A DNA stretch of 49,723 bases from Bacteroidota bacterium (GTDB lineage: Bacteria > Bacteroidota > Bacteroidia > 2-12-FULL-35-15), in assembly GCA_947479085.1 (NCBI GenBank), contig CANJYB010000030.1, positions 1 through 49,723 on the forward strand, read 5' to 3'. A program made the position numbers and the translations under genes. The notes under the pieces were generated by a model. The model ran no database searches. It was not told where the DNA came from and saw only the letters and a program-made list of their open reading frames with translations. This document shows positions 774 through 37,210 of this stretch, one piece after another (position 1 is the stretch's first letter; each line of letters opens with the position of its first letter).

Positions 774-3700
774 TTATTTTTCATCAGAAGTTGAAATATT
801 ACTTTTATTCAATGCTGTTTGAATGGCCTTTACTTCCGCTCTTAATTCTTCTATGCTTTTGGTTTGGGCATTAATTTTATTATCCTGCTCTTCAATTATT
901 TTTTGTTGTTCTTTAATAGCTTGCACCAGTATTGGAGTTAACCCGATATAATTCATGGATTTGAAAGTAAACTGGTCCTCTTTATCTCCTTTAGGGCTTA
1001 TACCCTGTCCTACCAATTCAGGAAAAACATTTTCCACATCCTGCGCAATTAAGCCAATTTGTAAACTTTCCGGGAAATTCATTCGTTTGTATTGCTCGTC
1101 TTTTTTAAAAGTATAGGTTTTTGGTTCCAGTTTTAATACTTTATCCAATGCTCCGGTTAATGGTTGTATGTTTTCTTTAAATCGTTTGTCAGAAACATTG
1201 CTCCAGGTTCCTGTATAAGCCCCATTTCCGGAGCAGTATACACCATAAGTTGCTCCTCCCGAAGTTCCCATTACACCTGTTAGGCCTCCCGTAATTCCCA
1301 ATCCATAAACACCAATATATTTTCCAATCCCCTCGGTGCCGATACCATAATTAGTTGCAGTGTTACTGGTTTCTCCTTTTACACCCACCCCATCTGCTGA
1401 GCCCGTATATGTATTTTTAAAATACCCAACCTGATTTCCGCTTACATTAATAACATCGGTTACGTGCAGGGCGTAAAGAGGGGTAGTAAGACCAATACCC
1501 ACGTTAACCGCATAAGTGCCTGTTCCCCCAAGAACCATAGCATTACTTGCGCCAACAACAGCATTTGCGCCAATAGCACACGAATTAGAAAAATTTCCGG
1601 AGGCATCGGCATTAAATCCAAGAAAGGTATTGTTATTTCCACTATAAATACTTGCCCAGCCTGCCTGTGCGCCAATACAGGTATTTGTGGAGCCTGTGCT
1701 AAAGCTATACCCTGAATGGTCGCCCAAAAAGGTATTTAATCCACCAGTTATTATATTATATGCACCACTGTAAGAACCAATGATTGTATTATTGGTTCCA
1801 GTAGTATTTTGTGTTCCTGCAAAGGTTCCGATAAATGTATTATCCGTTCCAACAGTGTTTTTATATCCGGCAGAATATCCTCCAAAATAATTAAAACTCC
1901 CTGAACTGTTTTGATAACCAGCCCGATAACCAACAAATACATTTTCGGTACCAATTGTATTTTTATAACCTGCTTTAAGACCAACAAATGTATTTTGAAT
2001 GCCAGTCGAATTAGTATAACCTGCATTATTTCCCAGAAAAATATTATCAGTCCCTGTGGTATTAAAATATCCTGTACTGTCTCCCATAAAAAGATTATTA
2101 CTTCCTGAATTAGTTGTATATCCACTCACGTTACCAAAGAAGAGGTTATAATTTCCACTTGTATTACTAAATCCACTTTTGTTGCCGACAAATAGGTTGT
2201 TAATTCCTGTCTGGTTATTAAACCCGGCATAACTTCCCAACGCCACATTATTTATCTGGGTAGTATTGGGAGTGTTTCCATTTAGTGCATAATATCCTAC
2301 CGCCACATTATAGTTTCCTCCTTGATTTGAACCAAGGGCACCTAATCCAACTCCTGTATTTCCTTGTCCGGTGGTATTATTATTTAAAGCGATAAAACCA
2401 ACGGCTGTGTTTTCGATACCTGTATTAGTCAAAAGCGAGTTACTCCCTACAGCAGTATTCTTATTCCCGACAATATTTGCTTTTAAAGCCTGGTAACCGA
2501 TTGCAGTATTGCTGACCCCTGAAGTGTTAACCAACATGGCCTGATACCCCAAAGCGGTGTTGAATGTCCCTCCACCTGCATTTGTAACATTTAGTGTTTG
2601 ATACCCGAACCCTGTATTTGCATTTGCCGAATAATCAATATAGCCGGAAAGGTTATTATTTACTTTAAATGCTAAGGCACGGGCATCAGTAGTTCCTATA
2701 AAATTTGTACCCACCGTGGTACCTGCATTTCCGGTAATTGACCAGTTGTTACTGCTTGGACCTCCGCTTAAAGAAACCCATTCAGCTCCATCCCAATAAT
2801 AATGCCCGGGAGTAACAGCGTTCGGGCTTACCCCGGCAGAGGCTGTATTATATACCAATAAAGAGGTAAGGGGGGAAGTAACAGGACCTGCAACATTAGA
2901 AGCCGTGAGTGCAACTCTGGGAATTAATAAACCGGAGGAACTGCTGGTAATGTCTAATTTTGCACTCGCATCAGGAGCAGCAGTACCAATACCAACGTTA
3001 CCAGTATTGTTATTGTAAATAGAGGTTCCGGAAGCTGTCCATACACTGTTTATAGTTATTCCGGTTAAACTTAAACCGGTACCAACAGCAAAAAAGGAAG
3101 AAGGCGAAACCCATGAAGCATTACCCGTAGCGTTACCTTGCAAAACGTAACCAAGAGTTGCTCCGCTGGTCATTTGGAAATTTGTGGTTTTTGTACTTCC
3201 ATTTACATCCAATGTGGAAGCAGGAGCAATGGTTCCAATTCCCACATTTCCATTATTTAAAATTCGCATGCGCTCTGTCAAAACAGTACTTCCGTCAGGA
3301 ATATTAGAAAAAGCAATATCAGTAGGTAAATCACCAGCTCCTCCGGCAGCACCGCGTATAACAGCTATCTGTGCTTCTGCAGTAGTTTGGAGGTTATCTC
3401 CAAAATCTATCCGATTTAAAATGGTACCTGAAGTAGTTTGACTTGCCGTTTGGCGAAACATTGCTACAGCAGGGTTTCCTGCAGTGGTATTTCTTATTTC
3501 TAAGTCAGCGGTGGTTAAAGCTGTAGCAACTGAATTTATACCCACCTTACCTGCAAACATTCCCGCTAAATCGCCCGAAGCGCCATATACACCAAATGTA
3601 ACATTGCTTCCATTGTGATAACCTAAGTAACCTCTTGCGGGTGTATATGCACCATTCACAGCAAAACCCCCGGCACCATAATAAGTATTGGTAGTAGAGG

Positions 3701-26504: not shown

Positions 26505-26812
26505 CAGGATGGCTCTGTTAATTATACAGGATGCCAGTTATGGGAGTGCAGGATGCCGGTTATGGGAGGACAGGATGCCGGTTATGTGAGTCAGGATACC
26601 GGTTATGGAAGTACAGGATGCCAGGTATGGGAGTACAGGATGCCGGTTATTGTAGTAGAGGATGCCAATTATGGGAGTATGGTATGCCAATTATGGGAGT
26701 ATGGTATGCCAATTATGGGAGTATGGTATGCTAATTATGGGAGTCAGGATACCAATTATGGGAGTATGGTATGCCGATTATGGGAGTATGGTATGCCGAT
26801 TATGGGCGGTTA
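26505..26812. repeat. Tandem array D, 22-bp unit, about 14 copies
   Basis: Units read AGGATGCCGGTTATGGGAGT plus two bases in the first half and GGTATGCCAATTATGGGAGT plus two bases in the second half. GCC recurs at 26664, 26686 and 26708 (22 bp), with a few 21-bp units. The two halves are two families of the unit that share the phase. Open frames across it are repeat translations. The array starts at the edge of the truncated barrel gene. Confidence 0.92.
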
Positions 26813-27020
26813 AAATGGGGGATAATGTGTGTTATTTTATTGTTTTTGAGTGTTTTAATTGTTTTTAGGGTGGGTTTGCAGGTATGAGGGAATGGGGAGG
26901 TGATATTCAGGATTTAAAGGGATTTTTTACCAAAGAGGAACATAGGAATATATAGAAAAATGCGGCCAGAGGCCGGTTAAACTGGACGTAGGGAGACCCT
27001 ACGCCAAACGGGGGGAATAG

Positions 27021-27262
27021 CGTGCTTATGTAGAAGTGATATATGCCAACTTTTTGGTATAGCCTGCTTTTGTAGAAGTAATATATGCCAACTTTTTGGT
27101 ATAGCCTGCTTTTGTAGAAGTGATATATGCCAACTTTTTGGTATAGCCTGCTTCTGTAGAAGTAATATATGCCAACTTTTTGGTATAGCCTGCTTTTGTA
27201 GAAGTGATATATGCCAACTTTTTGGTATAGCCCGCTTCTGTAGAAGTGATATATTCCGGCAT
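27021..27262. repeat. Tandem array E, 42-bp unit (2 x 21), about 5.7 copies
   Basis: GCCAACTTTTTGG recurs at 27045, 27087 and so on at 42-bp steps. The unit divides into two 21-bp halves, each with a palindrome: CTTCTGTAGAAG (sometimes CTTTTGTAGAAG) and TGCCAACTTTTTGGTA. The minus-strand frames over it are repeat translations. The arrangement looks like a higher-order repeat built from two 21-bp units. Confidence 0.92.
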
Positions 27263-27894: not shown

Positions 27895-30093
27895 ATGAAA
27901 CGTTCTTGTCAACTACTTCCGCTCGTTATCTTACTGCTGTGTAACATCAGTTATGCTCAGATAAGAAGAACCTTATACCAGGCCGAAAACGCCATATACA
28001 TTGCCGATTTTCAGAAAGCCAAAGGCTATTATTTAAAAGCATTGGCCCGCAAACCGGATAGCTATAAAGCCAATTATGGCATGGCCATACTGCTTGCAGA
28101 TGATATTGAAGATTACGACCACAGTCTTCCTTACCTGCAAAAAGCACTGAGCGTAAACCCCGCAAAAGATACCGCTCCGGCTTTAATGTATGCCTTAGGC
28201 CGAAATTACCAATACCTCGGCAAGTTCGATTCGGCCATGTATTATTTCCAAAAGCTAAAACGTTTTGAAGATTTGGACGATGATTTATTTGAAAAAAAGA
28301 TTGACCAGAACATAGCCGATTGTAAGTACGCATTAAAAAACACAGCATTAGTTTCACCAAAAAAATTATATGTCGTTAATGCCGGACCTACCATCAACTC
28401 CGATATGCCGGAGTATGTACCCGTACTTACCGGCTCCGACCAGATGATATTTACCAGCAAGCGCAAAGACGATGACAAGGAAAAATTCAATCTGTACAAT
28501 GGTCAGTACTTTGAAGCCATGTACATTTCCGACCTTCACAATGGTCGTACCTCTGCACCTAAATTGTTTACCATTCCCAAATCTTATTTAATGTCCAAAC
28601 TCAGCAGCAGCGATGAATCTGTTATTTCCATGCTTCCTGATGGCAAACAAATGTTTTTATACAAAAATGGAAAGATATACGAAGGCAACCTTACCGCATC
28701 TGTAGAACACCCTAAAAAGCTGGACAAAATAATTAATTTTGATTATTACCAGAACCATGCGACTATCACCAAAGATGGTCAAACCCTTTATTTCACCAGC
28801 GAATCGTCAACTGGCACTGGAGGAAATGATATTTACAAATCAGTTAAAAAGCCCGATGGCAGCTGGGGTATGCGCGAAAACCTTGGCAAAGTAGTGAATA
28901 CCGTATTTGACGAAGAGTCTCCGTTCATAGCTGACGATGGAAAGATTTTATACTTCTCTTCCAAAGGACACGATGGTTACGGAGGTTTCGATATATTTAA
29001 AACAGTATATGAAAACGGAAAATGGAGCACACCCGAAAACCTTGGCTTACCAATTAACAGCACTGCCAATGATATCTTCTATGTAATGAATGCTTCCGGC
29101 AATGCAGGTTATTTCTCTTCAGCCAGGGCAGGCGGCAAAGGCGACCTCGATATTTATAAAATAAATTTTATGGATAAATACACCATGGATTGTAACAGTG
29201 TAGATGCTACCACCATGCGCATAGAAGCCTCACCCAAAGCTGGAGAAAGAAACAAATATAATCTCACCGCCATGATTCCGGACAATATGAAAGACAAAGT
29301 TATTTCTTTCAACTGGCTCATCAATGATTCTCTGGTATCGGAAAGCGCAAACAATGTTGAATTCAGTTTTAAATCCATCGGAGAGTATAAAGTAAAAGCT
29401 AAAATGATGGCCTGGTGCGATACTTGTCTTAATCCATACATTGCCTGTACGGAAAAGAATGTTTCCATATTAACAATGGAAAACATCAATACTGATATTG
29501 TGTCAGGTCTTAATTCATCTGTTAAAGAAAGAGATATTAACGCCCACATTGGCGAAGCAGAAGCCCTGAATAAACTCGATTTAAAATCAGGAGCTAATAA
29601 AACAAAAGATGCTGAAATGGTATCATCAGCTAAGGGCGGAAACAAAGCACAAGGCCTGAAACCGGATATGATAAAGTATTATGCTAATGAATTGAAAAAT
29701 GTACATGGTGAATTAACAAAGGAACAAACTGCAAAACTTGGTTTGGATGTATCACCTGTTTATTTCGATGTTAATCATATTGAAATAAAACAGGAAGGTA
29801 AAGGTCAGTTGGATTATCTTGTTTCAATGCTTGCTAACTTCCCTGACTTATCTGTTTCCATCACCGGTTACACCGATTCGAAAGGAACAAAAAAGAACAA
29901 CCAACTGCTTTCAGCAAGGAGGGCCAATGTAGTTAAGAAATACCTTGTTAATAAAGGTTGGGATAAAACCAAAGCCTATGCAAAAGGTAGAGGAGAACTC
30001 GACCTTGTAAACAAATGCGCTGACCATGTGGTATGTGATGAGTCGCAACACCAACAAAACAGGAGAGTGGAGATAAAGATTGTTAAAAGATAA
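27895..30093 (+). CDS. PorE-like OmpA-family envelope protein (TPR, beta-propeller, OmpA)
   Basis: A 732-residue protein with a signal peptide (MKRSCQLLPLVILLLCNISY). Residues about 22-150 are TPR repeats (FQKAKGYYLKALARKPDSYK); residues about 165-425 are PD40/WD40-like propeller blades (MIFTSKRKDDDKE, LYFTSESSTGTGGNDIY, LYFSSKGHDGYGGFDIF, GYFSSARAGGKGDLDIY); residues about 430-530 look PKD-like; the C-terminus (VYFDVNHIEIKQEG, GYTDSKGTKKNNQLLSARRA, NRRVEIKI) is an OmpA peptidoglycan-binding domain. This order matches PorE, a T9SS component that ties the machine to peptidoglycan. Bacteroidota carry several paralogues, so PorE function is inferred, though four T9SS cargos in this window make it sensible. 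Confidence 0.85.
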   Translation: MKRSCQLLPLVILLLCNISYAQIRRTLYQAENAIYIADFQKAKGYYLKALARKPDSYKANYGMAILLADDIEDYDHSLPYLQKALSVNPAKDTAPALMYALGRNYQYLGKFDSAMYYFQKLKRFEDLDDDLFEKKIDQNIADCKYALKNTALVSPKKLYVVNAGPTINSDMPEYVPVLTGSDQMIFTSKRKDDDKEKFNLYNGQYFEAMYISDLHNGRTSAPKLFTIPKSYLMSKLSSSDESVISMLPDGKQMFLYKNGKIYEGNLTASVEHPKKLDKIINFDYYQNHATITKDGQTLYFTSESSTGTGGNDIYKSVKKPDGSWGMRENLGKVVNTVFDEESPFIADDGKILYFSSKGHDGYGGFDIFKTVYENGKWSTPENLGLPINSTANDIFYVMNASGNAGYFSSARAGGKGDLDIYKINFMDKYTMDCNSVDATTMRIEASPKAGERNKYNLTAMIPDNMKDKVISFNWLINDSLVSESANNVEFSFKSIGEYKVKAKMMAWCDTCLNPYIACTEKNVSILTMENINTDIVSGLNSSVKERDINAHIGEAEALNKLDLKSGANKTKDAEMVSSAKGGNKAQGLKPDMIKYYANELKNVHGELTKEQTAKLGLDVSPVYFDVNHIEIKQEGKGQLDYLVSMLANFPDLSVSITGYTDSKGTKKNNQLLSARRANVVKKYLVNKGWDKTKAYAKGRGELDLVNKCADHVVCDESQHQQNRRVEIKIVKR

Positions 30094-30112
30094 TACAATT
30101 GCTTTTTGTTTT

Positions 30113-30120
30113 TATCTTTG
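30113..30120 (+). promoter_or_regulatory. -7 element just before the GtrB-type glycosyltransferase
   Basis: TATCTTTG ends six bases before the ATG at 30127, which implies a transcript with a one- to two-base leader. It supports the ATG at 30127 over the TTG at 30106, which would lie upstream of the transcript start. Confidence 0.55.
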
Positions 30121-30126
30121 CCACCC

Positions 30127-31077
30127 ATGAATATTTCGGTTGTCATTCCATTATTTAATGAGGAAGAATCTTTACCTGAGCTTTGCGAATGGATAGAGCG
30201 GGTTATGCTTGCCAATAATTTCACTTACGAAATTATTCTTGTGGATGATGGCTCTAAAGATGGCTCATGGAAGGTAATAGAACAATTATCCGCAAAAAAT
30301 AAAAATATCCGTGGTATTAAGTTCAGAAGAAATTATGGAAAGTCAGCCGCATTGAACGAAGGTTTTGCCATAACGCAGGGCGATGTGGTAATAACCATGG
30401 ATGCAGACTTGCAGGATTCTCCTGATGAAATTCCCGATTTATATAAAATGATTTTTGTAGATGGTCTTGATTTGGTTTCAGGTTGGAAACAAAAACGATA
30501 TGACCCCATTACTAAAACAATTCCTACCAAACTATTCAACTGGGCTACCCGAAAAGCCAGCGGAATAAATAATCTTCACGACTTTAATTGTGGATTAAAG
30601 GCATATAAAAGCGATGTGGTTAAAAACATTGAAGTATATGGTGAAATGCATCGTTACATTCCTGTAATAGCTAAGTGGGCCGGCTTTACAAAGATTGAAG
30701 AAAAAGTAGTACAGCACCAGGAGCGTAAATATGGGAAAACAAAGTTTGGTATCGAACGCTTTATCAATGGTTTCCTGGATCTTATGTCCATTACGTTTGT
30801 ATCTAAGTTTGGTAAGCGCCCCATGCACTTCTTTGGATTATGGGGTACACTCTCTTTTTTATTTGGAGGAATAGTATCTGTAATATTAATTTCAGAAAAG
30901 CTTTATAAGTCACATTATCTTATTCCTACCCGGGATGTTACCGATAAACCATTGTTCTATTTAGCACTTTTAGCTATGGTTATTGGCACCCAATTATTTC
31001 TTGCAGGTTTCCTGGGAGAGTTGATTTCACGCAATTCCAGCGATAGAAACCGCTATCAGATAGAGAAAAACCTTTAG
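30127..31077 (+). CDS. GtrB/DPM1-type family 2 glycosyltransferase
   Basis: A protein of about 316 residues. The GT-A domain has VVIPLFNEEESLPEL, ILVDDGSKDGSW, FRRNYGKSAALNEGF, the metal-binding MDADLQDSP and VSGWKQKR. Two C-terminal membrane spans follow (FGLWGTLSFLFGGIVSVILI and FYLALLAMVIGTQLFLAGFL). This is the plan of polyprenyl-phosphate glycosyltransferases (GtrB, DPM1), which move a sugar from a nucleotide to undecaprenyl phosphate at the inner membrane. It lies upstream of the exopolysaccharide-type operon but has its own promoter, so a shared job is possible and not proven. Confidence 0.88.
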   Translation: MNISVVIPLFNEEESLPELCEWIERVMLANNFTYEIILVDDGSKDGSWKVIEQLSAKNKNIRGIKFRRNYGKSAALNEGFAITQGDVVITMDADLQDSPDEIPDLYKMIFVDGLDLVSGWKQKRYDPITKTIPTKLFNWATRKASGINNLHDFNCGLKAYKSDVVKNIEVYGEMHRYIPVIAKWAGFTKIEEKVVQHQERKYGKTKFGIERFINGFLDLMSITFVSKFGKRPMHFFGLWGTLSFLFGGIVSVILISEKLYKSHYLIPTRDVTDKPLFYLALLAMVIGTQLFLAGFLGELISRNSSDRNRYQIEKNL

Positions 31078-31125: not shown

Positions 31126-31158
31126 TTGACAATTTGATAGAAATTGTTAATATCTTTA
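31126..31158 (+). promoter_or_regulatory. Promoter of the exopolysaccharide-type operon
   Basis: A -33 TTG (31126-31128) and a near-consensus -7 TATCTTTA (31151-31158; the last base is A instead of G) with 22 bp between them. The transcript would start near 31163, giving a leader of about 40 nt before the ATG at 31203. Confidence 0.5.
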
Positions 31159-31202
31159 CGACCAAACTTTATATAACTGCGATAAACCTTACTCTACTAT
31201 TT

Positions 31203-33320
31203 ATGAAATACTTTGAAAAAGTATTATACACCACAAGTTTAATAACATCGTTATCGATGTATTCTTTTTCACAAATAAGGAATGATGGTAAGGACTCTTT
31301 GATTTCCTTTAAAATAAGTGAATTAAAAGCAGTATGGAATCTTGATAATGACATTTCAAGACAAGAGAATAAATACGAAAGTTATTCGAATATACCTAAA
31401 TTATTTAAAATAAGTTCCACAGACATAGTTTCAGACGATCAATACATAAAAAATGTAAATGATGCTAGGATAAAGTTATTGAAACAGGATGTAGGTTTGG
31501 AAGGAATTGCTAATTATTCTCAGAATTTTAATCCAGGATTTAATACGGACGATAATTTACTTTATCATTTCCGTTATCAGGTAGGGCTTGATTGGGACAT
31601 TCTTTCAGGAGGTTTAATTGAAAACCGCTATAAACAAAAAATACTAAAAAACGAAAATGCCATTATTGGTTTAACTCCTAAAACAAAAATAAATAATGGA
31701 GAGGATTACATAGCTATTTCGCACAAAATTATCTATTCATTCAATATTCATAAAATAAAAGTACTCGAAAAGCGTCAGCAGATTATCGATGATAAAATGT
31801 CTGTGGCAAATGAATTGTATTTATTAAAACATTTATCAAGGTTGAATTTGCTTGAAATAATGCAACAGCAAGTGGATGTTGGCAGCATGAACAGGATATA
31901 TAAAAGTTATAACGATGAATTGAAAATGAAAATGAATGTAGATTCATTACCAAAGGATATTTTGCCGGTATTTGATGTGGATTTCTCTCAGTTCCTTATA
32001 GCCGATTCTATTGGTTTGAAAACTAAAGGAAATGATACCATACTAAAATTGGAAACGGAAAATTTGAAACTTGCCCATAAGCCATTAAGTGATATTAAAT
32101 TGAATGCAAATTTACGTTTCAATTATTACGATTTGGTGAGTACCGATCTTTATAGCAGGAATTTCATGTCAGCTGGTTTGAGTCTTGCAGTTCCAATTCC
32201 ATTGCGAATAAAGGCAAACAAGAATTTGGTAGCTGCACAAACCAGACTTCTTCAGTTTGAGCAAAAAGAGGGGTCGAAAACAAAGCAAACTGACTTATTG
32301 AATTCATTTTATGAATTTAGATACAAACTAAAACAATACAGCAATTTTTATGAAAAGAGAAAAAAGTATGAAGAATTGATTCGTATCGAAAGAGTAAAGG
32401 AGAAATTTAACGATTTGGAATTTAACCCGCTAACTGCCCTTAATTTGCTTGACGAAATGCTTTCTGTTGATATTGAAATGCTGGACATTCAACAGCAAAT
32501 GTATTTACAATTATTAGATATCCATTCCAAAGCCCCTAGTGCGGATATTGAAATAATAATAAAGCCATACAAGATGGACACACTTTCAATGTCGCATGAA
32601 AAAATGAACAGAAGTATGTATGTTTGGTCAGAAGCACAAACAAAATATGGCTCCTCTTATGTTTCCGAATACTTGCGTTTGAATAAAATTTCGACCGCGA
32701 TTATTTCCTTGAAAAAAGATCAGTCTAACAGGACAGAAGCTTTAAGTTTGATAAATAAATTAAATTCAAAAGGAGTTAAAGTAGAATTATTAGTTGGGAG
32801 TAATAAACTGTTGACGGACAACAATCCAAATGCCTATTTTGATGAGTTGACAAAAGGGTTGGATTTAAAGGCTCTTTCTTCTTTACATTTGGATGTTGAA
32901 CCACATACAATGAGTGACTGGGAGACTAATAAAGACGAATACTTAAAAAAGTATCATGAACTCTTGAAAACAGCAAAAAGTTATTGTTCCCAAAAAGGAT
33001 TACAGTTAAGCGTTTCTATACCTGTATTTTATCCTGAAGAAACTTTGAAAGAAATATATGGACAAGCTGATAAAGTATACATAATGGCTTATGAGCATAA
33101 TGATGCAGATTATATTGTAAGAAAAGTTAAAGAGGAATTCGCTATAGATGCCGGTAAAACAATTGTAGCTTTAAGAGCAAAGGATTTTAAAAACAGAAAC
33201 GAATGTGAAAAGCTGATATCGGAACTAAGTCAACTTTTAAATACAACTAATTTTGCAATGCATGATTTGGAAACATTTGTGAAATTGGATGAAGAAAGTG
33301 TTAATCAAAATCAGAAATAA
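31203..33320 (+). CDS. TolC-like outer-membrane exporter fused to a glycoside-hydrolase-like domain
   Basis: A protein of about 705 residues. I choose the ATG at 31203 because a signal peptide starts there (MKYFEKVLYTTSLITSLSMY). Residues about 60-440 have the features of a TolC/OEP channel: long helices with a repeated half (VGLDWDILSGGLIENRYKQK and MSAGLSLAVPIPLRIKANKN). Residues about 465-700 look like a TIM-barrel related to GH18-type or GHL hydrolases: SSLHLDVEPHTMSDW with acidic residues after a beta strand, LSVSIPVFYPEE, DKVYIMAYEHND. The fusion is unusual. By analogy with hydrolase domains in PNAG and Pel systems, it could trim or clear polymer at the exit. The HlyD adaptor gene follows after 17 bp. 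Confidence 0.78.
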   Translation: MKYFEKVLYTTSLITSLSMYSFSQIRNDGKDSLISFKISELKAVWNLDNDISRQENKYESYSNIPKLFKISSTDIVSDDQYIKNVNDARIKLLKQDVGLEGIANYSQNFNPGFNTDDNLLYHFRYQVGLDWDILSGGLIENRYKQKILKNENAIIGLTPKTKINNGEDYIAISHKIIYSFNIHKIKVLEKRQQIIDDKMSVANELYLLKHLSRLNLLEIMQQQVDVGSMNRIYKSYNDELKMKMNVDSLPKDILPVFDVDFSQFLIADSIGLKTKGNDTILKLETENLKLAHKPLSDIKLNANLRFNYYDLVSTDLYSRNFMSAGLSLAVPIPLRIKANKNLVAAQTRLLQFEQKEGSKTKQTDLLNSFYEFRYKLKQYSNFYEKRKKYEELIRIERVKEKFNDLEFNPLTALNLLDEMLSVDIEMLDIQQQMYLQLLDIHSKAPSADIEIIIKPYKMDTLSMSHEKMNRSMYVWSEAQTKYGSSYVSEYLRLNKISTAIISLKKDQSNRTEALSLINKLNSKGVKVELLVGSNKLLTDNNPNAYFDELTKGLDLKALSSLHLDVEPHTMSDWETNKDEYLKKYHELLKTAKSYCSQKGLQLSVSIPVFYPEETLKEIYGQADKVYIMAYEHNDADYIVRKVKEEFAIDAGKTIVALRAKDFKNRNECEKLISELSQLLNTTNFAMHDLETFVKLDEESVNQNQK

Positions 33321-33337
33321 ACCAAAACCATAATATT

Positions 33338-34444
33338 TTGAAAAGTATAGATTTTAAAAGAAAAGGCTCGGCAATACGAGTAATGAACGAAGATACCAAG
33401 AAAGTAAAATACAATTGGGACAGAGTTGTCTATATTATATTTATAATTGGAGCTCTTGTTTTTTTAAGTTATTATGCAGTAAATAAGCTGTTTTATATAA
33501 AAGCGGATGGACAGGTTTTGTATGAAAATGTGATTATCCGTTTAACAGATGATTGCAGAGTATTATCATATCAGAAAAGAGAGGGTGATACAGTTCGGAA
33601 AGGAGATTCACTTTTTGTTTATACTCTTGATAAAGATGATTTGAATGGAGGAGGGGGAAATTATGGTGCATTAAAGGGAAATATAAATGATACCACTTAT
33701 CAGCAAGCACCGGATTGGAAAGAAAAAGAAAAATTCGCTCTTCAAAAGAAAGCTGCCACAAACGTTATAGAAATAAATTCCAATAAGGAAATTATTAAAA
33801 GTTATCAGGCTGAATTGCAAAGATTGGAAAACGAGGTTGTATTGGATGTGTTACCAAAAAGCAGACTTGAATTTGTTCAAAATGAGATATTAAGATTTCA
33901 AACTAATGTGGATAAACTGAACAGTGAAAATCAACAATATTATGCATTGATTTATCAGCTAAATCAAGCAGAGAAATTGAAACCGGCAATTAAAAGTACA
34001 AGGAATGGAGCTATTGGAGTTGGAGGAGGAAACGGAGGCGGAGGTGATGAAAATGACAGTACAAAGGTTTTCTATTCCCCGATTAATGGGACGATAACAA
34101 GAATTTACACACAACAATTTGAAGTAGCTTTAAAATCTGACCAAATAATGGCAATTCATAAAAATACACCAATGTATATAAAAGGATTTTTTGATCAGGA
34201 AGATATGAGTTACTTTAAAGAAGGAGATTTGGTAAATATTGAATTTCCTGATGGAACAAAAAGTAACGGTGTTATCAGAAGATTTTATTACGCTACTTAT
34301 TCATTACCAGATGAATTTCAAAAGCGTTATGAACCAACTACCAGAACGATAGCTGCGGATATCTATCCAGTTGAAGAATCAGAGTATAAACACTGGAAGT
34401 CTTTTTATAAATTAGGTGCAACCATAACAAAATATAAATATTAA
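33338..34444 (+). CDS. HlyD-type membrane fusion / periplasmic adaptor protein
   Basis: A 368-residue protein. Translation may begin at the TTG at 33338 or at the ATG at 33383; both leave the membrane span in place. The single span is VVYIIFIIGALVFLSYYAV. It is followed by the first half of a lipoyl-type domain (VIIRLTDDCRVLSYQKREGD), a coiled-coil hairpin (about residues 125-210), a glycine-rich link (GVGGGNGGGGDEND), the second lipoyl half (FYSPINGTITRIYTQQFEVA) and a beta barrel. HlyD/Alg44-like adaptors connect an inner-membrane exporter or synthase to a TolC-type channel. No ABC transporter is near, so the partner in the inner membrane is most likely the glycosyltransferase at 35903. Confidence 0.85.
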   Translation: MKSIDFKRKGSAIRVMNEDTKKVKYNWDRVVYIIFIIGALVFLSYYAVNKLFYIKADGQVLYENVIIRLTDDCRVLSYQKREGDTVRKGDSLFVYTLDKDDLNGGGGNYGALKGNINDTTYQQAPDWKEKEKFALQKKAATNVIEINSNKEIIKSYQAELQRLENEVVLDVLPKSRLEFVQNEILRFQTNVDKLNSENQQYYALIYQLNQAEKLKPAIKSTRNGAIGVGGGNGGGGDENDSTKVFYSPINGTITRIYTQQFEVALKSDQIMAIHKNTPMYIKGFFDQEDMSYFKEGDLVNIEFPDGTKSNGVIRRFYYATYSLPDEFQKRYEPTTRTIAADIYPVEESEYKHWKSFYKLGATITKYKY

Positions 34445-34469
34445 TAGTGATCATTAAACACTTACAATC

Positions 34470-35903
34470 ATGTCATTAAAAATTGTTCCTCAAAGCATAG
34501 AAATAAGAAATAATAAAATAGAATTTGATAATCTATTATTTTTTATTGTTGATAGTAACAGCAGTGTGAAAATTGAACCATTAATTGGTTATGACGCAAT
34601 AATTATTGATGCAAAAGATGCTGATTTTGCAAAGCTTATTTTGAAAAAAATACGTACCCATTACAACCCGGAATTTTATTTGAAACCCGTTTTTTTAATT
34701 AATTACAAAGAATCCAAGGATCCGATTCTGCATAATATGAATGATGGGTTAATACACTCTTATGATCAACTAAAAGACATAGCAGATATTGCTAAACAAA
34801 TATTTTTAAAGACTACTCAGTTAGATTACCAATTGGTTGCCACCTTTGAAGCACAAATGGTGAAAAAGGTTTTGAACTATATGTTTACCAGAGATTTAAA
34901 AACACTAAAACCTATTCCAGATTTGAATTCTGCAATTGGTTACACATATCCTGAAATTTCTGTAAATTTTGATTCTACGGAAGAAACACAAGTGTTGGAA
35001 ATACTAGAATGGGCTGAGAAAGAAGGAATAATATGGCCTGATTTTTATGAAAGAATTTATTTATGCAATCAATGTAATGGTGGTTTTTTAAGTTATAGAG
35101 AGGTGTGCCCGCATTGTAATTCTTCTAATTCAAGTGCCCAGGATCTGGTTCATCATTTTCCTTGCGCATACATTGGACCTCTTTCTGATTTCAGGAACAC
35201 AATAGACAACTCACTTACATGCCCGAAATGTAATAAAGCATTACGCCATATAGGAGTGGATTACGATAAACCTTCGATTATACATCATTGCAATAACTGT
35301 GATAAAAACTTCCAAGACTTTTTTGTGAAAGCAAAGTGCATTTCATGCACTCAGGATGTGGAAGTTCAATATCTGATACCAAAATCAATTAACATTTATA
35401 AACTTACCAAAAGAGGTAGAACGGCAGCAGGAAATGGATTCCTTTCAAGCGGAAAAGAAGTGGAAGATATTTTCGGAGCTATCAGTATGCCTGTTTTCAA
35501 AACATTGCTTCACTATGAAATTGAAAGGATAAAAGAAAACCCTGAACAAAAATCATGTATTGCAATTATTAACACTGAAAACATTCTTGAATTATATAAG
35601 AAGATAGGAAAGAAGGCAGAAAAATCTGTTTTAGAAACCATTGTTAACCTGATTCGTGAAAATATTAAGCCAACGGACTTCATAGCTTTTGAGAATTCAT
35701 CAACATTATATCTTGGTATTATTAATAGTGAAGCTTTGCAGGCTGAAACAGATTTAGCAAATTTAAAAACACTTATAGAAAAGCTAATCAAAAACAATTT
35801 TAATGATTTTGATGTGAAAATAAATTTCAAAGTGAAATTATTGCAACCATTCAATAAATCAGAATTTCAACTTGACGAACTAACAAAAGAGCTATTTGAT
35901 TAA
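34470..35903 (+). CDS. Cytosolic regulator: degenerate receiver, TackOD1 zinc ribbons, degenerate GGDEF
   Basis: A 477-residue soluble protein. Residues about 20-115 look like a worn receiver domain (LLFFIVDSNS, AIIIDAKDAD, KPVFLINYKES). Residues about 125-310 match the TackOD1 output domain: VLNYMFTRDLKTLKPIPDLN, GYTYPEISVNFDS, then zinc-ribbon pairs CNQC, CPHC, HHFPC, CPKC, CNNC and CISC, with HIGVDYDKP between. Residues about 335-470 have the outline of a GGDEF domain but lack the GG[DE]EF active loop (FENSSTLYLGI is in its place), so cyclase activity is not expected. Bacterial degenerate GGDEF proteins such as PelD switch on polysaccharide synthesis by binding a ligand. The stop codon overlaps the next start (TAATG), so it is coupled to the glycosyltransferase. 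Confidence 0.78.
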   Translation: MSLKIVPQSIEIRNNKIEFDNLLFFIVDSNSSVKIEPLIGYDAIIIDAKDADFAKLILKKIRTHYNPEFYLKPVFLINYKESKDPILHNMNDGLIHSYDQLKDIADIAKQIFLKTTQLDYQLVATFEAQMVKKVLNYMFTRDLKTLKPIPDLNSAIGYTYPEISVNFDSTEETQVLEILEWAEKEGIIWPDFYERIYLCNQCNGGFLSYREVCPHCNSSNSSAQDLVHHFPCAYIGPLSDFRNTIDNSLTCPKCNKALRHIGVDYDKPSIIHHCNNCDKNFQDFFVKAKCISCTQDVEVQYLIPKSINIYKLTKRGRTAAGNGFLSSGKEVEDIFGAISMPVFKTLLHYEIERIKENPEQKSCIAIINTENILELYKKIGKKAEKSVLETIVNLIRENIKPTDFIAFENSSTLYLGIINSEALQAETDLANLKTLIEKLIKNNFNDFDVKINFKVKLLQPFNKSEFQLDELTKELFD

Positions 35904-37210
35904 TGCGTTTTCTTGACGAATTTATTAATTACATGTCATCGGTAGATGCAGCGAAGCTCTTCCGAATGTTTTGGTTTTTTTTTATTTTCGAATTTTTCCG
36001 TTTTTTCCTTGTTGAAATATCAACCATTATTTTCTGGAAGTTTGATAGTATTTTCAGAAAAAAGGGTATTGCAGATGCCCGCCTATCTCTTATTAAAAAT
36101 CAACCGCTTGTTTCTATTATAGTACCGGGAAGGAATGAAGGAAAGCATATTTTTAAACTCGTAAATTCCCTTAAAGAGCAAACTTATCAGAACTTCGAAT
36201 TAATAGTTATTGATGATGGCTCAGATGATGATACTGCGGTTATTTGCCGCAATCTTGAGCATAGAGGAATGATAAACGCCTTTTATAGAAATGACGTAAG
36301 GGGAGGAAAAGCTTCAGCGGCAAACCTCGGATTACGGTTTGCACGAGGAGAATATATTATTCATTTTGATGCAGATTGTTCTTATGATAGAGATGCAATA
36401 GAAAATATCCTTGTTCCATTTTTTTATAACCCCAAAATAGGGGCAGTAGGAGGGAATGTTCAAGTTCGTAATTATAAAGAAAGTTTATGTGCCACGCTTC
36501 AGGCTCTTGAATACTATGACACTATTTCAATTGGTCGTATTACCACAAGTGAATTGGGTATTTATCGTGTAATTTCAGGAGCTTTTGGTGCTTTCAAAAG
36601 AGAAGCTTTGGATAGATTAGGAGGCTGGGACATTGGACCAGGTCTTGATGGAGATATTACTGTAAAGATACGTAAACTTGGTTACATTATTCATTTCGAA
36701 CCAACGGCAGTTTGCCAAACAAGTGTTCCGGTTACTTTTGATCGCCTAATAAAACAACGTTTGCGTTGGGATAAATCGCTTATCCGTTTTCGGCTTCGTA
36801 AGCATAGAGATGTGTTTTTTCCTAACGATTCTTTTAAGTTTTCAAATTTTATTTCTTTTGTTGAAAATGTGACTTATAATTTGATCTTAAATGTAAAATG
36901 GTATTTTTATTTGTTTGATATGGTATTCAATTTCACTTCTCAATTGGTATTTATTATTCCGATGAATATAGTATTGTACACCGTAAATAATTTTATGAAA
37001 TTCCTTGTGTTTTCTCCATTTCGAGATAGGAAAAATGAAGGGATTACATATTTCCTTATATATATACCTTTAATGGTATTCTATTTTGGTTACTTCTTAA
37101 GGATTGTAAGGACTGTTGCTTACGTTCAGGAATTGTTCTTTAAAGCATCATATAAGGACAGCTGGAATCCTGCAAAATCTTCACGTCAGGCGAAAGCATT
37201 AAAACTGTAA
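35903..37210 (+). CDS. Processive family 2 glycosyltransferase (exopolysaccharide synthase type)
   Basis: A 435-residue integral membrane enzyme. An N-terminal span (LFRMFWFFFIFEFFRFFLVE) precedes a GT-A domain with VSIIVPGRNEGKHIF, IVIDDGSDDD, IIHFDADCSYD, GLDGDITVKIRKLG and the QRLRW motif (IKQRLRWDKSLI). The D, D, D, QxxRW set marks processive synthases such as PgaC, Alg8, hyaluronan and cellulose synthases. At least three C-terminal spans follow (WYFYLFDMVFNFTSQLVFII, YFLIYIPLMVFYFGYFLRIV). The gene starts inside the stop of the TackOD1 gene. It should make the polymer and carry it across the inner membrane. The sugar cannot be told from the sequence. Confidence 0.88.
   Translation: MRFLDEFINYMSSVDAAKLFRMFWFFFIFEFFRFFLVEISTIIFWKFDSIFRKKGIADARLSLIKNQPLVSIIVPGRNEGKHIFKLVNSLKEQTYQNFELIVIDDGSDDDTAVICRNLEHRGMINAFYRNDVRGGKASAANLGLRFARGEYIIHFDADCSYDRDAIENILVPFFYNPKIGAVGGNVQVRNYKESLCATLQALEYYDTISIGRITTSELGIYRVISGAFGAFKREALDRLGGWDIGPGLDGDITVKIRKLGYIIHFEPTAVCQTSVPVTFDRLIKQRLRWDKSLIRFRLRKHRDVFFPNDSFKFSNFISFVENVTYNLILNVKWYFYLFDMVFNFTSQLVFIIPMNIVLYTVNNFMKFLVFSPFRDRKNEGITYFLIYIPLMVFYFGYFLRIVRTVAYVQELFFKASYKDSWNPAKSSRQAKALKL

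Follow-up and report, generated by a model that had tools for sequence, protein, structure and literature searches.

Several described polysaccharide systems resemble parts of a four-gene operon that we analysed in a 49,723-nucleotide contig of a Bacteroidota bacterium (CANJYB010000030.1 of assembly GCA_947479085.1; "the window" denotes this whole stretch) and that encodes a TolC-like outer-membrane channel (OEP), an adaptor of the HlyD/EmrA type, a TackOD1 regulator, and a family 2 glycosyltransferase (GT2). In Shewanella oneidensis, mxdA is the first gene of mxdABCD, and its product is a cyclic di-GMP (c-di-GMP) effector that binds CheY3; MxdB is a membrane type II glycosyl transferase, MxdC resembles an efflux pump, MxdD has no described role, and strains deleted for either mxdA or mxdB neither aggregate nor build up a biofilm (PMC3691769, PMC7666153). 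Judged by published description, Mxd is like the loci studied here in its regulator-GT2-efflux-like gene order, which is that of gammaproteobacterial TackOD1 loci, in its c-di-GMP effector contacting a CheY, and in being required for matrix build-up, but no TolC-hydrolase gene is described there (PMC3691769, PMC7666153, PMC11395469). For cyanobacterial cellulose, the synthase XcsA, the HlyD-like XcsB, and TolC have been proposed as a secretion route that, according to a review, lacks experimental validation and whose genes do not form one operon (PMC12430437). This arrangement is likewise tripartite without a pump (GT2, HlyD-like adaptor, and TolC-like channel) and has an associated hydrolase; it differs in that its synthase makes cellulose and carries PilZ, its genes are scattered in T. 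vulcanus, its endoglucanase is separate, and no TackOD1 is described for it (PMC12430437). The rhizobial BgsBA system, which makes a mixed-linkage beta-glucan, pairs a GT2 with the HlyD-domain partner BgsB in one operon under c-di-GMP control, whereas its c-di-GMP is bound by the BgsA C-terminus and its operon, as described, is without TackOD1, channel, or hydrolase (PMC9495663).

Likeness to the PgaABCD and IcaADBC systems for poly-N-acetylglucosamine (PNAG) lies in a GT2 whose nearest NCBIfam model is PgaC/IcaA, in a hydrolase fold for which the GH153 domain of PgaB is among the tied best matches, and in an associated putative deacetylase; however, PgaA is a TPR porin rather than a TolC protein, HlyD is lacking, PgaB joins hydrolase and deacetylase in one lipoprotein, the window set is without PgaD, and the GT2 clades are separate. 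PelD of the Pel system is a degenerate GGDEF regulator and Alg44 of the alginate system has an HlyD-like periplasmic part, but we know of no TackOD1 and no TolC-hydrolase fusion in either Pel or alginate (Alg8/Alg44) systems. The AcrAB, EmrAB, and type I pumps share the HlyD/EmrA-type adaptor and the TolC fold, and differ in having an ABC, RND, or MFS component.

In the window, the gene order is OEP-HlyD-TackOD1-GT2, with, from 5' to 3', 17 bases, 25 bases, and a one-base overlap between successive genes (Table 1), and each product exceeds the cut-off of its Pfam family (OEP, 26.9 bits against 22; HlyD_3, 25.7 against 22.2; TackOD1, 175.9 against 32; Glycos_transf_2, 101.3 against 23.3). We consider it likely, from conservation, co-occurrence, family comparisons, and predicted structures, that this operon encodes machinery for synthase-dependent exopolysaccharide secretion, with the synthase standing in for the pump of a TolC/HlyD assembly and a hexosamine polymer as the likely product. 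An earlier note on this DNA had proposed the same coordinates, spacing, and domain make-up, all of which are confirmed by open reading frames (ORFs), Pfam matches, and predicted folds. Pfam also bears out its four family names; the two other domains that it named, a hydrolase-like domain and a degenerate GGDEF domain, are not matched by Pfam in the window proteins themselves, and we call the first because of a sub-cut-off GH18 match in a homologue (locus L041) together with the predicted fold, and the second because a profile matches GGDEF domains of solved structure and the predicted fold agrees. A search of the open-access literature by title and abstract, with subscription journals outside its scope, found no description of this operon.

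Four genes form one evolutionary unit

From 321 GTDB stretches coding for a relative of TackOD1, the best 80 were taken as the locus set, which, being anchored on TackOD1, informs on TackOD1-bearing loci only. The four genes stand together in 71 of these loci, the other nine starting or ending at a contig end inside or beside the set, and the median intergenic spacings are 1, 2, and -1 bases. The HlyD gene borders the TolC-like gene in 71 of the 80 loci, and this placement of the export parts within the operon fits synthase-dependent secretion. The set is also complete in 18 of 20 further regions (the other two are stopped by a contig end); six to seven genomes are common to both collections, and seven locus groups across them have an identical TackOD1 stretch, hence the resulting 100 loci do not equal 100 genomes.

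The test that is independent of the TackOD1 anchor is a GT2 survey of 395 genomes drawn from Bacteroidota. TackOD1 is rare: it scores above the cut-off in 12 of the 395 genomes (seven more, with partial sub-cut-off matches, were left out of the count) and in 13 of 59 relatives. The GT2 family (E <= 1e-60) occurs in 12 of the 395 genomes, and its list of genomes is identical to that for TackOD1. The earlier note had named, as what would speak against its proposal, homologues in which the GT2 is never linked to the other three genes; the opposite was found, TackOD1 and GT2 occurring in the same 12 genomes. Flanking genes are variable, and by neighbour clustering every neighbour family is confined to 18 or fewer of the 80 loci. 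The four genes are one evolutionary unit.

Some loci depart from the common layout. A gene for a protein of 455-457 amino acids lies between HlyD and TackOD1 at four loci (L040, L042, L043, and L044); the products at L040 and L042, the two of the four that were scanned, are nucleotide-sugar dehydrogenases nearest the UDP-GlcNAc 6-dehydrogenase TviB (453 and 463 bits, cut-off 592). The OEP gene is split into two ORFs at L105 and L126, perhaps through sequence error or decay. One genome (G258) has two versions of the set about 15 kb apart on one contig: L040, with the sugar-acid dehydrogenase and without the hydrolase domain, and L041, with a hydrolase-bearing channel and a receiver-TackOD1 protein. 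At another locus (L115, positions 1082-3682), the gene between HlyD and TackOD1 encodes a PKD protein of the type IX secretion system (T9SS), a BLAST relative of the deacetylase-like proteins considered below.

A PgaC/IcaA-like synthase with a linked adaptor and no recurrent pump

The window GT2 has hydrophobic segments at both ends, a DxD motif (D156, D158), and a QRLRW motif (Q285, R286, R288, W289), and both DxD and QxxRW are kept in all 93 aligned GT2 rows. Its nearest NCBIfam model is PgaC/IcaA (182.8 bits, cut-off 422.3), its score with the CelA model is 33 bits against 699, and PilZ is not among the Pfam families of the protein. QRLRW and affinity to PgaC/IcaA mark processive synthases. 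In a tree of 17 Bacteroidota and 10 Pseudomonadota TackOD1-linked GT2s with seven others (PgaC and IcaA among them), the 27 TackOD1-linked proteins form one side of a branch (support 90/84, not starred), within which the Bacteroidota clade is supported at 99/99. Among the plasmid GT2s listed, those linked to TackOD1 have the lowest E-values (6e-67 to 3e-37), the others standing at 3e-34 and weaker. Membership in the PNAG (Pga/Ica) systems was rejected, the GT2 lying far below the PgaC/IcaA cut-off and grouping separately from both enzymes in the tree, and cellulose synthesis (Bcs/Xcs) was set aside in view of the CelA score.

The HlyD/EmrA-type adaptor has a single N-terminal hydrophobic segment (residues 26-52 by hydropathy), and a PDB sequence search with it returned no match. 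In both phyla HlyD goes with the GT2, whereas TolC is not always present, and this ties the adaptor to the synthase. TolC and HlyD proteins normally need an energised pump, and the two might accordingly serve an unlinked pump with some other cargo, the glycan of GT2 and TackOD1 leaving separately and the operon reflecting co-regulation. An RND-like ORF upstream of the set at one locus and an MFS pump operon beside the Methylocystis module described below are in keeping with this explanation, but we regard it as improbable: no pump recurs at the 100 loci, HlyD accompanies GT2 in both phyla, and the window HlyD and OEP each match only themselves in their own genome (E <= 1e-3). No ABC, RND, or MFS gene lies inside the four-gene operon, and within four genes of the 100 loci (640 neighbours) a crude test by motif and hydropathy found no recurrent pump gene; an ABC-motif protein is near five of the 100 loci and an ORF with at least eight predicted membrane segments near 14, of mixed kinds. 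A pump gene conserved with TolC and HlyD, the other finding that had been named as adverse to the proposal, is therefore not seen at these loci by this crude test. The RND-like ORF, a possible one seen at L091 alone among the 100 loci, has 990 amino acids and eight predicted segments.

A channel fused to a hydrolase-like domain

The OEP protein (705 amino acids) comprises a signal peptide, a TolC/OEP fold at about residues 60-450, and a predicted C-terminal TIM barrel resembling GH18 and GH153 at residues 466-702. Its AlphaFold2 model, built with 52 sequences, has a mean predicted local distance difference test score (pLDDT) of 86.5 and a predicted template modelling score of 0.60, and in Foldseek its best matches are TolC-type channels (7ng9, E 3.2e-11), with chitinases lower down. 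VIA-align, for which our reading rests on the best 50 entries, aligned 373 residues of the segment 66-450 with TolC (Z 17.9, root-mean-square deviation [rmsd] 5.1); for residues 466-702, GH18 chitinases and the GH153 domain of PgaB are tied among the matches listed (Z 17.6-19.4), as with 4s3j (Z 19.4, rmsd 3.3, 223 aligned) and PgaB 4p7o (Z 18.9, rmsd 3.4, 229 aligned). The top VIA-align row includes 1jnd, a non-catalytic chitinase-like protein, so the fold alone is no proof of hydrolase activity. The GH18 match at L041 reaches 24.8 bits (cut-off 29.6), and a sequence profile of the OEP family gave one weak PDB match over the hydrolase region, to a chain titled GH97 (E 5e-4). The D and the E of the active-site-like motif HLDVEPH (HxDxE) are each kept in 80 of 82 aligned OEP rows, the exceptions being L040 and L048, which are without the domain, and the first Asp positions of the DxxDxDxE-type motif of GH18 are not kept.

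In the model, four barrel strands in two hairpins bring both ends of the protein to one side. The N-terminal side of TolC proteins is the periplasm. Because this topology puts the hydrolase-like domain beside the N-terminus, the modelled domain is on the periplasmic side, and not at the exit, where the earlier note had placed hydrolytic trimming of the product.

A receiver-linked TackOD1 regulator

The regulator, predicted to be cytosolic, consists of a receiver-like domain, TackOD1 (residues 128-312, with CxxC/HxxC zinc-ribbon cysteines), and a degenerate GGDEF domain. In a profile built from 18 TackOD1 proteins, the first part matches receiver domains and the last part GGDEF domains of solved structure, and the model of the window protein (pLDDT 87.9) retrieves GGDEF folds in Foldseek. 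The zinc-ribbon residues of TackOD1 (PF18551) C199, C202, C213, C216, C232, C251, and C254 are invariant in 51 rows, as are C274, C277, C290, C293, and H228/H229. A GG[DE]EF string is absent from the 99 Bacteroidota and 14 Pseudomonadota TackOD1 rows. Both the R and the D of the RxxD inhibitory site (I-site) are present in 31 of the 99 Bacteroidota rows; four gammaproteobacterial rows have a contiguous RDTD at its place, and in two Methylocystis rows the R and D align only with extra residues between them. At six loci (L041, L045, L046, L047, L049, and L050), a canonical-looking receiver stands at the N-terminus of the TackOD1 protein, and a separate ORF of 106-119 amino acids resembles the receiver-like N-terminus of the window regulator.

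Plasmid-borne relatives and a probable relation to Mxd

A tblastn search of plasmids returned 22 records with the window TackOD1 protein and 20 with its Plesiomonas relative, the latter comprising 15 bacterial records, all from Pseudomonadota, and five haloarchaeal ones, with no Shewanella among those listed. Of the 15 bacterial records, 14 have TackOD1, GT2, and HlyD, recognised by annotation, Pfam, or profile, as consecutive genes (at 15 loci, two being in Photobacterium); in the fifteenth, the neighbours of TackOD1 lie across the record end. Some of the plasmid adaptors annotated as "hypothetical protein" are HlyD by Pfam, and the Methylocystis adaptor is HlyD by the window-family profile alone (31.5 and 32.9 bits). 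The order is TackOD1-GT2-HlyD in Plesiomonas and Photobacterium and TackOD1-GT2-TolC-HlyD in Aeromonas.

All four genes occur on Aeromonas caviae pKAM329_3, a mobilizable plasmid of 29 kb, where the TolC protein of 694 amino acids carries the hydrolase-like domain (E 1.6e-5 with a profile built from Bacteroidota only; its 88 bits with a second profile are not independent, that profile having been built with this sequence). With the whole set on a small mobilizable plasmid, the system can pass from one strain to another. Another plasmid record, pKAM345_3, agrees with pKAM329_3 in size and in its TackOD1 gene. In Methylocystis iwaonis, TackOD1-GT2-HlyD is followed by an ORF of 314 amino acids that is itself hydrolase-like (E 1.2e-6, Bacteroidota-only profile) and then by TolC, and the parts thus exist both fused, as in Aeromonas, and apart.

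Given these loci, the operon may be the Bacteroidota form of Shewanella mxdABCD, with MxdA corresponding to the TackOD1 protein, MxdB to GT2, and MxdC to HlyD, and with a channel added, a view that we hold to be rather probable. The TackOD1-GT2-HlyD order of Plesiomonas, Photobacterium, and Aeromonas matches that of mxdABCD, the RDTD of the four gammaproteobacterial rows fits Mxd, and receiver domains fused to TackOD1 would fit the contact between CheY3 and MxdA, which presumably has a degenerate GGDEF domain of its own. On the other hand, MxdD is without a described counterpart at TackOD1 loci, the likeness to Mxd is one of description and gene order, and the window order OEP-HlyD-TackOD1-GT2 differs from that of Mxd, whereas the Pseudomonadota loci keep regulator-GT2-adaptor. 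The Shewanella operon probably shares the plan, and its identification with the present one concerns naming and novelty rather than mechanism.

The earlier note had spoken of a possibly new type of secretion machine. Its gene set is real, but the plan of GT2, HlyD, and TolC has precedents in Xcs, BgsBA, and probably Mxd. That the operon is the full form of a distinct class (i.e., with the synthase in place of the pump, a channel that brings its own periplasmic hydrolase, and TackOD1 as a receiver-linked switch), present in Bacteroidota and Pseudomonadota and with Mxd as a reduced member, is a view to which we give slightly better than even chances. If true, it would account for the binding of CheY as well as c-di-GMP by MxdA, and the orphan biofilm operon of Shewanella would be joined to a family that spans phyla and offers candidates for the channel and the hydrolase.

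A PNAG-like polymer is favoured

Within two genes of the set, 10 of the 80 loci have a deacetylase-like protein with a T9SS tail, and 17 have a T9SS protein of the CotH-LTD type. At E <= 1e-60, the deacetylase family has members in 10 of the 13 TackOD1-positive relatives and in none of the 46 negative ones (Fisher 4.6e-9, a value that ignores kinship), and the CotH family (E <= 1e-120) in five of the 13 and none of the 46. Fisher values are inflated by kinship, yet the positive genomes come from the window's genus and from two further families. Within that genus, the deacetylase and CotH genes sit on contigs other than that of the operon. The window's own genome has one deacetylase-like and one CotH-LTD gene, 2.6 kb apart on another contig (C6, L190), and because it holds 10 further CotH matches, CotH alone means little.

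We tentatively name the T9SS protein a deacetylase on sequence grounds and favour a polymer of the N-acetylglucosamine type (a PNAG-like hexosamine chain), because a PgaC-like GT2, a predicted glycoside hydrolase fold, and an unlinked T9SS deacetylase that co-occurs with TackOD1 are all consistent with one. PNAG systems had been thought to share just a single part of the plan with this operon; the likeness is closer, with GT2, hydrolase fold, and associated deacetylase all pointing the same way. Such a polymer would be predicted in the matrix of environmental Bacteroidota, for example Crocinitomix and Brumimicrobium, of which the isolates Crocinitomix catalasitica ATCC 23190 and Brumimicrobium glaciale are among the relatives and have the operon.

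The CotH proteins allow a further explanation, namely that the GT2 makes no polymer for export and instead glycosylates a lipid or those proteins, of CotH/LTD or deacetylase type, that the T9SS secretes. Their presence near 17 of the 80 loci and their restriction to TackOD1-positive relatives agree with such a role, which we nevertheless think very improbable: QRLRW and the affinity to PgaC/IcaA are the marks of a processive enzyme, a hydrolase fused to a channel would be hard to explain if no chain entered that channel, and CotH is missing from most loci.

Proposed mechanism and points against it

Returning to the synthase-dependent machine, we propose four steps. From its family, the GT2 would join nucleotide-sugar units in the cytosol and thread the chain through its own membrane channel. 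HlyD, anchored in the inner membrane, would enclose the chain and dock on a TolC-like trimer that opens through the outer membrane. The periplasmic GH18/GH153-like domain, with its conserved DxE pair, would cut or free straying or jammed chains. The cytosolic regulator (receiver, TackOD1, and GGDEF-like domain) might switch the synthase via receiver phosphorylation, nucleotide binding, or both. The chain itself, likely a PNAG-type hexosamine polymer, would be processed outside by the T9SS-secreted deacetylase encoded elsewhere in the genome. This scheme would provide operon-level support for pump-free polysaccharide export through TolC and HlyD, and a testable role for TackOD1, whose function in bacteria is called obscure in the one open-access paper found to name it (PMC5847659).

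Several observations weigh against this scheme or parts of it. Hydropathy shows few clear membrane segments in the GT2. Among the Pseudomonadota, 12 of the 15 loci gave no hit to the OEP profile, which could miss an ordinary TolC, and the set in that phylum can therefore lack a neighbouring channel gene. The Methylocystis iwaonis module (L154, L163) is adjoined by a divergent MFS-OEP-HlyD pump operon. The haloarchaeal plasmid TackOD1 genes (L152, L161, L162) have no annotated GT2 or HlyD nearby in the three of three regions viewed, and the role of TackOD1 may differ there. Five OEP proteins (L040, L042, L043, L044, and L048) are without the hydrolase-like domain, so that hydrolysis is not essential to the plan. 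As to the product, three of the 13 TackOD1-positive relatives are without the deacetylase family, and Pfam scores for the deacetylase straddle the cut-off of 23.1 bits (24.0 and 21.6 in two relatives, 17.8 in the window's own genome). Moreover, the TviB-like dehydrogenases of L040 and L042, themselves sub-cut-off matches, suggest that the polymer differs between lineages, and the four loci with the dehydrogenase-position gene (L040, L042, L043, L044), all without the hydrolase-like domain, hint at an acidic one. Control by c-di-GMP is likewise called into question, since the I-site of the window regulator reads K400...D403 and the arginine is absent. Sensing of c-di-GMP by this protein was set aside as unproven on account of K400, although binding through other residues is possible, and the allosteric control by TackOD1 that had been put forward earlier stays at the level of a suggestion.

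Other features of the window

Coordinates of the operon and of the features around it are given in Table 1. The gene for the TPR-PD40-OmpA protein probably lies outside the core set, and the ArnC/PgfS-like GT2, although possibly co-transcribed with it, is upstream of the set in only nine of the 80 GTDB loci by neighbour clustering, i.e., lineage-specific; with the first GT2 in so few loci, these two upstream genes were rejected as parts of the conserved unit.

Table 1. Positions of the operon genes, the active-site-like motif, and the upstream genes in the window
Feature	Position	Strand	Remarks
TPR-PD40-OmpA outer-membrane protein (PorE/CHU_0125-like), upstream	27895..30093	+	Pfam, NCBIfam
Second GT2 (ArnC/PgfS-like), upstream	30106..31077	+	NCBIfam PRK10714, 176.3 bits, cut-off 529
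OEP channel gene	31203..33320	+	ORF 31134-33320, ATG at 31203
HLDVEPH active-site-like motif codons	32890..32908	+	D587/E589 in the 728-amino-acid ORF, D564/E566 in the 705-amino-acid protein
HlyD/EmrA-type adaptor gene	33338..34444	+	TTG start
TackOD1 regulator gene	34470..35903	+	
PgaC/IcaA-like GT2 gene	35903..37210	+	

Promoter-like sites are not enriched (40, against 35.3 +/- 5.6 in shuffled sequences). Downstream of the operon GT2, on the opposite strand, follow an ORF of 237 amino acids, one of 154 amino acids, and a dnaA-like gene, the names being assigned by eye from the sequence. Two intergenic tandem repeats lie at 26525-26806 (22-base units, 12.9 copies) and at 27017-27254 (42-base units, 5.7 copies, 94% matches).

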